A stretch of DNA of 64,000 nucleotides from Caulobacter soli (lineage in GTDB: Bacteria; Pseudomonadota; Alphaproteobacteria; Caulobacterales; Caulobacteraceae), in the NCBI RefSeq assembly GCF_011045195.1, contig NZ_CP049199.1, positions 3,410,001 through 3,474,000 on the forward strand. Direction: 5' to 3'. Shown here one piece after another: positions 35,184 through 43,250 of this stretch. The first letter of the stretch is position 1. Each line of letters opens with the position of its first letter. The translations under genes and the position numbers were made by a program. Under the pieces are notes generated by a model, which made no database searches, had not been told where the DNA came from, and saw only the letters and a program-made list of their open reading frames with translations.

Positions 35184-37853
35184 TCACGCCGCCTCGCCCC
35201 GCGCCTTGGCGCCAGGATCGTAGTTGAGGATCGGCGACAGCCACTTCTCGGCCATGGCCACGTCCCAGCCCTTGCGGCGGGCGTAGTCCTCGACCTGGTC
35301 GAGGTCGACCTTGCCGACGCCGAAATAGTGGCTCTGCGGGTGGCTAAAATAGAAGCCAGAGACCGCCGCGCCGGGGCTCATGGCGTAGCTCTCGGTCAGG
35401 ATCATGCCGGTGGCCGCCTCGGCGTCGAGCAGCTTGAACAGCGTGCCCTTCTCGGTGTGATCGGGCTGGGCCGGATAGCCGGGGGCCGGGCGGATGCCCT
35501 GGTACTTCTCGGCGATCATCACGTCGACGTCGCGCGACTCGTCGGGGGCGTAGCCCCACAGCTCGACGCGGGCCTTGTAGTGCAGCCACTCGGCGAAGGC
35601 TTCGGCCAGGCGGTCGGCCAGGGCCGAGGCCATGATGGCGCTGTAGTCGTCGCCGGCGTCCTTGAAGCGCTTGACGATCTCGTCCTCGCCATGGCCGGCG
35701 GTGACGGCGAAGCCGCCCATGTAGTCTCCGCCCTGCCCGATCGGCGCGACAAAGTCGGCCAGGGCCAGGTTGGCCTTGCCCTCGGACTTGTCCATCTGCT
35801 GGCGCAGGGTGAACAGGCGCGCCAGCTCGGTCGAACGAGTTTCGTCCGTATAGAGAACGATGTCGTCGCCATCGGCCTGGGCCGGCCAGAAGCCGACCAC
35901 GCCCTTGGCCCCGAACCACTTCTCGGCCACGACCTTGTCCAGCATCTCGCGGGCTTCGCGATAGAGATCCGTCGCGGCCTCGCCGACCACGTCGTCCTCC
36001 AGGATCTGCGGGAAACGGCCGATCAGCTCCCAGCTGGCGAAGAACGGCGACCAGTCGATGAACGGGACCAGCTCTTCGAGCGACGGCTCGAACGTGCGCG
36101 CGCCGATGAAACTGGGCTTGGGCGGCGCGTAGCCTTCCCAGTCGATGGCGAACTTGCGCTTGCGGGCGTCGGCGATCTTGGTGCGCGCCTTGGCCGTCTG
36201 GCCCCGGGCGTACTGCTCGCGGATGCGGACATATTCGGTGCGGGTTTCGGCCTGCAGACGGTCACGTTCCGTCGGCGACAGCAGGCCCGAGACCACGCCC
36301 ACCGCGCGGCTAGCGTCCAGGACGTAGGTCGTGGAGCCCTTGTGATAGGCCGGCTCGATCTTGACCGCCGTGTGGGTGCGGCTCGTGGTGGCGCCGCCGA
36401 TCAGCAGCGGCATGGTGAAGCCCTGGCGCTCCATCTCGGACGCCACGAACACCATCTCGTCCAGCGACGGCGTGATCAGGCCCGACAGGCCGATCATGTC
36501 GACGTTGTGCTTCTTGGCTTCTTCCAGGATGCGATCGGCCGGGACCATGACGCCCAGGTCGATGACCTCGTAGTTGTTACACTGCAGGACCACGCCGACG
36601 ATGTTCTTGCCGATGTCGTGGACGTCGCCCTTGACCGTGGCCATCAGGATGCGGCCGGCCTGCTCGCGCGGCTTGCCGGCCTTCTCGGCCTCCATGAAGG
36701 GCTCGAGCCACGCCACGGCCTGCTTCATCACGCGGGCCGACTTGACCACCTGGGGCAGGAACATCTTGCCCGAGCCGAACAGGTCGCCGACCACGTTCAT
36801 GCCGTCCATCAGGTGGCCTTCGATCACGTGCAGCGGGCGCTCGACCGACAGGCGGGCTTCCTCGGTATCCTCGTTGATGAACTCGGTGATGCCGTTGACC
36901 AGAGCGTGGGTGATGCGCTCATTCACCGTGCCCTTGCGCCATTCCAGGTTGGCGGTCTGGACCTGGCTCTTGTCGCCCTTGTAGCGCGGAGCCATGTCGA
37001 CCAGACGCTCGGTATTGGAGACGTTGGTGCGCTGCGGGCGGTTGAGGATCACGTCCTCGACGGCATCGCGCAGTTCCGGGTCCAGGGTGTCGTACACTGG
37101 CAGGTCGCCGGCGTTGACGATGCCCATGTCCATGCCCGCCTCGATGGCGTGGTACAGGAACACCGAGTGGATCGCCCGGCGCACGGGCTCGTTGCCGCGG
37201 AAGCTGAACGACACGTTCGACACCCCGCCCGAGATCCGGGCGTAGGGGCAGCGCTTCTTGATCTCGCGCGTGCCCTCGATGAAGTCGACGGCGTAGTTGT
37301 CGTGCTCCTCGATCCCGGTCGCCACGGCGAAGATGTTGGGGTCGAAGATGATGTCTTCCGGCGGGAAACCCACCTTGTCGACCAGGATGTTGTAGGCCTT
37401 CTCGCAGATCTCGATCTTGCGGGCGGCGGTGTCGGCCTGGCCCACCTCGTCGAAGGCCATGACCACCACGGCCGCACCGTAGCGCAGGCATAGCTTGGCC
37501 TGCTCGATGAACTTGGCCTCGCCTTCCTTCATCGAGATCGAATTGACGATGGCCTTGCCCTGCACGCACTTCAGGCCGGCCTCGATCACCTCCCACTTGG
37601 AGCTGTCGATCATCACCGGCACCCGCGCGATGTCGGGCTCGGCCGCCATCAGGTTCAGGTAGGTGATCATGGCCTGCTTCGAATCCAGCAGGCCTTCGTC
37701 CATGTTGACGTCGATGACCTGGGCGCCGGCCTCGACCTGCTGGCGCGCCACCGACAGGGCGGCCGGATAGTCGCCCTCGACGACCAGTTTCTTGAACTTG
37801 GCCGAGCCCGTGACGTTGGTGCGCTCACCGATATTGACGAAGACGGGTCTCAT
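35184..37853 (-). CDS. metH: cobalamin-dependent methionine synthase, folate/B12/activation half
   Basis: An 889-residue protein equal to modules 2-4 of MetH. The pterin-binding domain comes first ([19 protein letters not shown] at 4-22, then [12 protein letters not shown]), then the cap and B12-binding domains with GDVHDIGKN (His is the lower cobalt ligand), and finally the AdoMet activation domain (about 560-889). It transfers the methyl of methyltetrahydrofolate to homocysteine bound by the separate protein encoded at 39255-40331. ATG 37853 overlaps the stop of the DUF4259 gene (ATGA). Last gene of the methionine operon. Confidence 0.95.
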
Positions 37854-38248
37854 TTGGCGGCGCTCAAGGTCGTTTGCAGGACGGCGATCTGGGTCAGCCA
37901 CACGTCGTGATCGTCCCCCTCCTGCCAGAGTTCGTCGAGTTCGGAGGCTGGAGCCACGACGCGCGCCAGGGCCGATCGCGCCAGGGCGACGGCGCCTTCC
38001 GGCGGCGCGCCGAGCGCGGCTTTCAGCTCGCGATGATTGTCGGGCAGGATCGTCACGTCGCCGACGGCGGCCGCGACGATGGCGGCGGCGGCCACGGCGG
38101 TCGCGCCCTCGGGCGCTTCCAGATAGCCCGCCTGCTTGGTCACATAATCGAGCGCCTGGACGACCGTGCGCCATTCCGGCGCCTCGGCCAGGTCGTCGAC
38201 GAAGTCCAGCGCGTCGTCGTTGTCGAAGGGTCCGGGAGCCCAGGCCAT
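37850..38248 (-). CDS. DUF4259 family protein inside the met operon
   Basis: A 132-residue protein beginning [20 protein letters not shown], the characteristic opening of DUF4259 (W-G-x-G-x-F-x-N-D-x-A). The rest is helical and acidic. The family function is unknown. Its start overlaps the Ddl-like stop (TGATG) and its stop overlaps the metH start (ATGA), so it is translationally locked between them. Confidence 0.8.
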
Positions 38249-39243
38249 CAGACCACCTCGACCTTCGCCCGCGCGACCGCGAGAGCGATCTGGCCGTCCA
38301 GGAAGTCGCGGAACGCGATCCCCTGGGCCTTCAAAGACTTCGGATACAGCGACGCGGCGGTCATGCCCGGCAGGGTGTTGATCTCCAGGAAGATCGGGCC
38401 GTTCGGCGTGACGATGAAGTCGCTGCGCGAATAGCCGCCGGCGCCCACGGTCTTGTGGGCCTTCAGGGCGGCCTCCTGCATGGCGGCGTTGACCTCGGGG
38501 GCGAAGGTGGCCGGGCAGATCTCCTCGGTCGTCTTGGCCAGGTACTTGCCGACATAGTCGAAGGCTCCGTCGGCCGGACGGATCTCGACGGGCGGCAGGG
38601 CGAAGACCTTGCCGTCCTGCTCCAGCACCCCGCAGGTGGCCTCGGCTCCCGCCACGAAGGGCTCGATGACATAGGCCTCGCGCGCGGCGGCGGCGTTCAG
38701 CTGTTCCAGCTCGGCCGGACCGTTGACGAAGATCAGGCCGTAGCTGGAGCCGTCGGCCACCGGCTTGGCGACCAGCTTGCCGTATTGGGCCAGGGCGGCT
38801 TCCGCGTCGGCCAGGGCCACGGTCGAGGGCGCGACGACGCCGGCCTTGGCCACGGCGGCCTTGGTGGCGATCTTGTCGAAGGCCAGGCGGCTGGACTTGG
38901 AGTCCGAGCCGGTAAAGGCCACGCCGCGCGCCTCGCACAGGGCGGCCAGGTCGCCGTTCTCCGCCGCGCCGCCGTGCATGCCCAGGACCAGCACACGATC
39001 CTCGGCCTTGGCCTTGTCCAGCGCCGCCGCGATGTCGCCGATCGGCGCGCCCTCGGTCGGCAGGTCGATCTCGAACGGTCGCTCGTGGGCCTGCAGCACC
39101 GCGTCGCTGGCCACATAGACCTGGTCGTCGGGCGCCCAGAACCACAGGTCGGCCTCCGGCAACGCCGTGGCCAAGGCCTTGGCGCTGGCCACCGAGACGA
39201 GGCGCTCGCGGCTCATGCCGCCGAAAAGGATGGTCGTACGCAT
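38248..39243 (-). CDS. D-alanine--D-alanine ligase-type ATP-grasp enzyme in the met operon
   Basis: A 331-residue ATP-grasp ligase with the full Ddl pattern: [21 protein letters not shown] (about 88-108), the ATP loop segment [10 protein letters not shown] (about 164-173), [18 protein letters not shown], the [17 protein letters not shown] region and the C-terminal GGYSRSDF followed by [18 protein letters not shown]. Such enzymes join two D-alanines for peptidoglycan. It may be a second Ddl or a ligase with another acceptor. ATG 39243. It lies between the two halves of split MetH, 11 bases after the first half, which is unexpected. Confidence 0.85.
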
Positions 39244-43231: not shown

Positions 43232-43232
43232 G

Positions 43233-43250
43233 AGGATATAAAGATATCCT
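43233..43250 (-). promoter_or_regulatory. palindromic operator of the met operon
   Basis: AGGATATAAAGATATCCT: 7-base arms AGGATAT and ATATCCT are exact complements around AAAG. It starts one base upstream of the regulator's ATG (43231), overlaps its ribosome site, and is strikingly AT-rich for this DNA. An operator for the ArsR-type regulator itself, and so for the whole operon, is the simplest reading. Confidence 0.7.

Follow-up and report, generated by a model that had tools for sequence, protein, structure and literature searches.

The stretch of Caulobacter soli DNA studied here (the window: 64,000 nucleotides (nt) of contig NZ_CP049199.1, positions 3,410,001 to 3,474,000) contains a methionine operon in which a second D-Ala-D-Ala ligase (Ddl) gene lies between the two parts of a split metH. 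Our results indicate that this ligase very probably makes D-Ala-D-Ala for peptidoglycan and that its presence lets the ddlB gene decay, within a SahR-type operon that carries passenger genes. According to the proposed mechanism, the SahR-type methionine operon of Caulobacterales (regulator, metF and split metH) would take passengers at two inner junctions, i.e. an exported CAU-type beta-lactamase between metF and the first metH part (metH1) and the second ligase, usually with a DUF4259 gene, between metH1 and the second part (metH2). Where the second ligase is present, the original ddlB beside ftsQ would become dispensable and decay; the window genome, with both ligases intact, looks like the stage preceding ddlB loss.

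All seven leftward genes named in an earlier inspection of the letters (the sequence-only reading) were recovered, and their coordinates and domain identities were confirmed by Pfam and NCBIfam. Together with an operator-like site, they are:

43236..43255, no strand: 20-bp palindromic operator-like site directly ahead of the regulator start, with two changes relative to ACATAAAGATATCTTTATGT
42206..43231, minus strand: SahR-like regulator with an ArsR-type helix-turn-helix (Pfam HTH_5, 48 bits) and an S-adenosylmethionine (SAM)-dependent methyltransferase domain (Methyltransf_11, 70.6 bits)
41262..42209, minus strand: metF, methylenetetrahydrofolate reductase (Pfam MTHFR, 308.9 bits; TIGR00676, 333.4 bits, over cut-off)
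40405..41265, minus strand: CAU/MBL1b subclass B3 metallo-beta-lactamase (MBL) with a signal-peptide-like N-terminus (NF000427 blaCAU, zinc motifs, PDB 8u00)
39255..40331, minus strand: metH1, homocysteine-binding N-terminal part of MetH (Pfam S-methyl_trans, 311.1 bits; PRK09490 positions 8-354)
38248..39243, minus strand: probable second D-Ala-D-Ala ligase, met-operon Ddl subfamily (Pfam Dala_Dala_lig_C, 122.9 bits; active-site columns; AlphaFold2 (AF2) model)
37850..38248, minus strand: DUF4259 protein (Pfam DUF4259, 94.1 bits)
35184..37853, minus strand: metH2, C-terminal part of MetH with pterin, B12-binding and activation domains, 889 residues (TIGR02082, 1195.4 bits; PRK09490 positions 359-1233)

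Start and stop codons overlapped, as had also been claimed, at metF/MBL, Ddl/DUF4259 and DUF4259/metH2, and gaps of 73 and 11 nt separated the MBL gene from metH1 and the metH1 stop from the Ddl ATG, respectively. Counted from this ATG at 39243, the ligase is 331 residues long, and a longer open reading frame begins upstream at a GTG. The gene order was found to be conserved when checked across 75 Caulobacter genomes. A metH1 match was obtained in 73 of these genomes, and in 61 of them the MBL gene preceded metH1 by at most 400 nt. Of the 25 Ddl-bearing genomes, 24 had the Ddl gene on the metH1 strand, following metH1 within 112 nt in 22 cases and after about 1 kb in two. In the 25th, the locus was split by a contig end and metH2 nonetheless followed. 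This recurrence rules out an order restricted to the present strain. The DUF4259 gene accompanied Ddl in 21 of the 24 Caulobacter Ddl loci that were fetched (own locus excluded). At least one open-access paper uses the term DUF4259.

The fate of ddlB was followed through a Ddl census of these 75 genomes, based on PF07478 (E<=1e-20) and on the window Ddl protein (E<=1e-60). Eleven genomes displayed both the met-operon Ddl and ddlB, 14 the met-operon Ddl only, 48 ddlB only and two neither (these being 70% and 74% complete); the met-operon Ddl thus occurred in 25/75 genomes and was the only Ddl found in 14. All 60 genomes with a completeness of 90% or more and a contamination of 5% or less had a Ddl; 21 of them possessed the met-operon copy, 12 of which were met-only. 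A search for ftsQ in 30 genomes was successful in 29 (all but G160). Upstream of ftsQ stood a full-length ddlB in 10/10 genomes with both ligases and 5/5 with ddlB only, and nothing but a C-terminal ddlB remnant in 14/14 met-only genomes. Including the other genomes fetched, ddlB was intact in all 11 genomes with both ligases and in all 24 ddlB-only genomes fetched (24 of 48), i.e. 35/35 overall. Stops or frame changes interrupted the remnants in 12 of the 14 met-only genomes, and the remnants were in order, within about 15 nt of the position expected from ddlB. Since ddlB overlaps ftsQ, the remnants might merely reflect constraint from this overlap; this was rejected, because with the overlap left out all 14 still scored above all 15 of their two-base-block shuffles. 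Outside the overlap, five remnants extended over 73-117 residues. Because a remnant was present in every met-only genome and ddlB was intact in the 35 others, the most likely reading is that the met-operon ligase forms D-Ala-D-Ala and has displaced ddlB more than once. As the normal wall copy has decayed, it would be the sole ligase of some species, in which the genomic data strongly suggest that it bears the essential Ddl role.

A comparable picture emerged outside Caulobacter. No ddlB match was detected in the 1.5 kb upstream of ftsQ in 8/8 met-only genomes of the genus containing Asticcacaulis, nor in the same interval in Phenylobacterium deserti, and such a match was present in 4/4 ddlB-only genomes of the former genus and in the Phenylobacterium having both ligases (G085 and G112 share coordinates and G085 alone was used). 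In a tree of FtsQ and MetH1, the met-only Caulobacter fell into four groups. Some inner supports were low and this is not a formal count, but ddlB would most simply have been lost four times in this genus.

Substitution rates also fit a relaxed constraint on ddlB once a second copy is present. Among nine genomes with both ligases (36 pairs, without G160 and G179), ddlB had a median omega (ratio of nonsynonymous to synonymous rates) of 0.250 and a nonsynonymous rate (dN) 1.91 times that of ftsQ, versus 0.090 and 1.02 times in ddlB-only genomes of the same ftsQ range (134 pairs), and 0.128 and 0.66 times for all ddlB-only pairs (253). The met-operon copy in the genomes with both ligases displayed an omega of 0.153 (28 pairs).

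At the protein level, the window genome encodes two Ddls, the met-operon copy and a DdlB in the dcw cluster (G000:C1:3744219), which share the Ddl fold and active-site residues. They are only about 31% identical and belong to separate clades, and the former resides in the met operon rather than beside ftsQ. The met-operon Ddl passes the Pfam model of the C-terminal ligase domain (122.9 versus 24 bits). Residues E15, H63, K97, K144, S150, E187, Y216, R255, D257, E270, N272 and S281 (E. coli DdlB numbering) serve catalytic or substrate-binding roles in DdlB. Their columns were conserved in 60/60 met-operon rows and in 46/46 rhizobial rows apart from one change at the E187 column, the two sets of rows overlapping between sources; the earlier remark that the ligase retains its active site is borne out. 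The AF2 model, computed from a 13-sequence alignment, reached a pLDDT of 89.2, with a weak stretch at residues 230-234. Its best PDB match was P. aeruginosa DdlA with D-Ala-D-Ala, and the 50 best matches shown were all Ddl-type ligases, including the D-Ala:D-Lac ligase VanG. The TM score to 8evw was 0.80.

Relatives of this ligase occur in two main settings. A search of 99 genomes of the family uncovered 15, including the own genome, with a met-type Ddl at no less than 61% identity, and the start of metH2 was also present in all 14 other loci; at E<=1e-20, 3/99 genomes gave no match, one of them (G090) being 98% complete. In a one-genome-per-species collection, 316 relatives were confirmed, of which the best 80 were kept and all examined. 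Of these best 80 of 316, a met operon housed 34, with a metH part on either side in 33 cases and a contig end interrupting the locus in one; a further 43 belonged to dcw clusters and three to neither setting. This locus set overlaps with the genome set used above, so that the two are not independent. The 43 dcw loci, from Bradyrhizobium, Rhodopseudomonas, Tardiphaga and their kin, displayed the order murC, murB, ddl, ftsQ, usually followed by ftsA and ftsZ where the contig reached. Phyllobacterium, a Rhizobiales isolate and Microvirga (L059, L070 and L094) carried the subfamily as an extra copy outside both settings. The Nitrobacteraceae dcw ligases are about 61-66% identical to the met-operon Ddl and, unlike it, are located between murB and ftsQ. 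The 115 Ddls entered into a tree included 81 met-type and rhizobial rows, all of which grouped in a single clade (support 100/100) distinct from the other Ddls. The root branch was long and the Caulobacterales and Nitrobacteraceae groups were mixed, so that transfer between them may have run in either direction. Members of the subfamily, sited in the dcw cluster, were the sole Ddl at E<=1e-20 in 4/9 Nitrobacteraceae genomes searched. Taken together, the conserved residues, the fold, the dcw setting seen in other families and ddlB decay make D-Ala-D-Ala synthesis the most likely activity of the met-operon ligase.

Several observations weigh against this assignment or against ddlB replacement. 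The ligase missed the NCBIfam Ddl cut-offs (PRK01372, 188.5 against 243; TIGR01205, 171.2 against 245.65), for which reason it is labelled here a divergent subfamily that would work like a Ddl, and it also missed the Pfam model of the N-terminal ligase domain (26 against 34.6 bits), so that its substrate could differ. The own DdlB passes PRK01372 (359.8), yet also misses TIGR01205 (238.8), and proteins P0008 and P0116 likewise lie under the NCBIfam Ddl cut-offs. Some of the pocket-side columns carry other residues than DdlB (V152 to Y, M259 to I, S274 to L), and the low-confidence loop of the model is the one with the K215/Y216 equivalents. Five of the nine Nitrobacteraceae genomes possess a further Ddl. 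As for ddlB decay, the met-only genomes G147 and G152 are only 85% and 87% complete, the remnants of G064 and G124 lack a stop over about 70 recognisable residues, and nine of the 14 remnants are short outside the overlap (18-80 residues, 30-41 bits). Caulobacter RHG1 (G116, with the same coordinates as G146) encodes a further ATP-grasp protein, distantly Ddl-like, which exceeds the Pfam cut-off (44 bits). As a replacement Ddl this protein (L285:314-1357; TIGR01205, 69.8 bits) was rejected, on sequence grounds only, since it lacks the Ddl end motif PGMT and lies far under the NCBIfam cut-offs. Finally, the met-operon copy has not tightened in met-only genomes, where its omega was 0.293 versus 0.103 for metH1 (91 pairs); the pairs used for these selection estimates are not independent, and ftsQ itself differed between groups (0.211 versus 0.100).

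The other inserted gene of the window operon codes for a CAU/MBL1b subclass B3 enzyme, predicted to be an exported beta-lactamase. In this subclass, the HxHxDH motif and later histidines provide zinc ligands. The window MBL displays HAHYDH at 94, GHT at 169 and SHEE at 234, in line with the earlier remark that its active site is kept; it passes the NF000427 blaCAU model (554.8 bits, cut-off 500) and matches PDB 8u00 (E 1.4e-129). Its N-terminus is hydrophobic and signal-peptide-like, and a similar start was seen by eye in 22/22 listed loci of MBL orthologues. As side observations, a second B3-type MBL of 36-40% identity was encountered elsewhere in nine genomes (G064, G056, G071, G117, G118, G124, G086, G133 and G134), and one stop codon fell inside the matched stretch of nine Caulobacter MBL matches, which may be end effects (G171, G153, G047, G022, G144, G161, G145, G135 and G159). 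A 2002 abstract by Docquier reportedly made the point that the beta-lactamase lies within a methionine operon. A 2026 paper (PMC13046382) describes C. crescentus blaA as one of five operon genes, the others coding for a predicted regulator and three methionine proteins. There, blaA deletion abolished nitrocefin activity, and the orthologue was described as conferring intrinsic ampicillin resistance. When the regulator CCNA_02225 was deleted, the flanking methionine proteins went up whereas the BlaA level was essentially unchanged, and the authors propose an internal promoter for blaA. C. crescentus CAU-1/MBL1b (BlaA) and the window MBL thus belong to the same family, over a curated cut-off, and to the same operon; the C. 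crescentus operon, as described with five genes, has neither the Ddl nor the DUF4259 gene that the window operon contains. The CAU-type lactamase inside the Caulobacter methionine operon is therefore already in print, and the new part is the ligase.

The sequence-only reading had put forward a role for both enzymes in homocysteine or one-carbon metabolism, with, for example, the MBL opening homocysteine thiolactone and the ligase acting on another amino acid, which here would mean joining homocysteine or methionine. Their conserved place in the operon would favour such a role, and Ddls may be promiscuous, given the D-Met or glycine at position 5 in C. crescentus, which is proposed to arise at the Ddl step (PMC3585186). 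However, a thiolactone role was not supported, because the lactamase is a blaCAU member that begins like an exported protein and its C. crescentus counterpart does not follow the operon regulator (PMC13046382). For the ligase, E15, S150, Y216 and R255 are retained, and the met-operon copy replaces a decayed ddlB in 14 Caulobacter while its dcw relatives serve as sole Ddl in some Nitrobacteraceae. A homocysteine function for the pair is hence very improbable.

Alternatively, the second Ddl could be an isozyme for antibiotic tolerance (e.g. to D-cycloserine), forming with the beta-lactamase a cassette against wall-directed drugs. Two genes related to such drugs do share one operon, and integron-borne extra ddl variants that confer D-cycloserine resistance have been published (PMC7691350). 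Nevertheless, all 20 met operons fetched out of the 48 ddlB-only genomes contained regulator, metF, MBL, metH1 and metH2 with no met-operon Ddl, and conversely the Ddl occurred without the MBL in G147, L061 and several Asticcacaulis loci; each occurring without the other, a joint gain as one cassette is ruled out. Moreover, the met-operon copy is the sole Ddl of many genomes. We regard a tolerance isozyme as improbable, though better placed than a homocysteine function.

Examination of the metH1/metH2 junction showed that it hosts varied genes. In the 20 ddlB-only operons just mentioned, the two metH parts were separated by no more than 192 nt in 14 cases and by 385-2268 nt in the other six. 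In other loci, this gap harboured a DJ-1 gene (L067), an amine oxidase gene with an adjoining RidA-type gene (L078, L097, L099, L104, L219 and L220, in Asticcacaulis and in G129 and G157), a methyltransferase gene (L098) or a DUF6882 gene (L064), and a PIN-domain gene stood between metH1 and Ddl in L039 (9067-10001, by Pfam) and L065 (8538-9436, by likeness). One example of each passenger was scanned by Pfam and the others were assigned by sequence likeness. A small gene lies upstream of the PIN-domain gene in L039 and L065, perhaps as a toxin-antitoxin pair. The met operon of G151 (L243) has neither MBL nor Ddl and represents a natural empty site; this genome is 93% complete and 5% contaminated, and was placed among the genomes with both ligases in the FtsQ and MetH1 tree. 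The junction thus resembles a site at which passenger genes can dock, which is the main argument against a metabolic meaning of any one of them. It might accept genes through recombination between conserved metH parts, the Ddl site then having no regulatory meaning. The variety of passengers, the empty operon and the different placement of RHG1/G146 in the Ddl tree and in the FtsQ and MetH1 tree all favour such neutrality, to which we give somewhat better than even chances. By itself, neutrality leaves the retention of an essential gene at this site in many species without an explanation; it is compatible with D-Ala-D-Ala synthesis by the met-operon ligase and with ddlB decay, and denies only a coupling between methionine and the wall.

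The control of the operon bears on this coupling. Ahead of the regulator gene, a palindrome with at most two mismatches was present in 44 of 54 related loci that contain this gene. The remaining ten were cut at the locus edge and are not true absences, so that all 44 uncut loci carried it. Two such sites were found in the own genome, one ahead of this operon and one (L283:1501) some 380 nt ahead of metE, in the interval between metE and a divergently oriented gene that resembles a sigma factor by eye. SahR regulons have been reconstructed in 4/4 Caulobacterales genomes (PMC4239095). Given the conserved palindrome, the metE site and these published regulons, the operon is most likely under SahR control, with S-adenosylhomocysteine (SAH) as putative effector. 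It shares with the SahR methionine regulon an ArsR-family regulator ahead of metF/metH and a 20-bp palindrome, and differs from the published one by holding a wall gene; in the main text of PMC4239095 the word "lactamase" occurs 0 times.

From the 11-nt spacing, the ligase is expected to be co-transcribed with the met genes and to follow their control. If so, it may have been recruited to let the SAH-sensing SahR set D-Ala-D-Ala supply according to the state of the methyl cycle, a form of the tie between wall synthesis and methionine supply that the sequence-only reading had raised as an alternative. This short spacing, the operator-like site in every uncut locus, the Caulobacterales SahR regulons and the occurrence of Ddl at the same junction across three genera would speak for it. 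Against it, unrelated genes also occupy these junctions, so that position need not mean function, and subfamily relatives work from dcw clusters. The neighbouring BlaA is independent of the regulator in C. crescentus, a warning that internal promoters may act in this operon (PMC13046382). Such recruitment is rather unlikely, though better placed than the tolerance isozyme. In the same tentative vein, Asticcacaulis and a dozen Caulobacter species, each represented by one well-assembled genome, might express their sole Ddl from a SahR operon, tying peptidoglycan precursor supply to the SAM/SAH cycle, and the decay of ddlB, which in Caulobacter would most simply have happened four times, might be the footprint of this rewiring.

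Two further features were recorded in the window. A beta-propeller protein with weak Vgb/YncE-like matches is encoded directly downstream of metH2 (34168-35133, minus strand), and a match to the suhB/mmgR small RNA family (50858-50937, minus strand; 70.6 bits) was the only result of an Rfam scan of the window at gathering thresholds.

Among the matches listed in open-access full texts, no description of a ddl gene in a met operon was found, subscription papers and preprints lying outside the search. Xenologous or non-orthologous displacement of essential genes is a familiar concept, and the present case likewise involves an incoming homologue and a decaying resident copy. Unlike in the general concept, the displacement is recurrent in one genus, its remnants can still be read and the incoming copy sits in an amino-acid operon. 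The new part is this recurrent displacement of an essential wall gene by a homologue in the methionine operon. The dcw cluster is a textbook example of conserved gene order, yet a distant homologue has taken over from one of its essential members, most simply on several occasions, and the intermediate stage (both copies, as in the window genome) and the fossil stage can be observed side by side. In practice, the sole Ddl of these bacteria can escape ddl searches that look only in the dcw cluster or rely on curated Ddl cut-offs. The system raises the question of why antibiotic-related genes gather in a methionine operon, and it offers ready material for studying how an essential gene changes its address and its controller, and whether wall synthesis comes to depend on methionine status.

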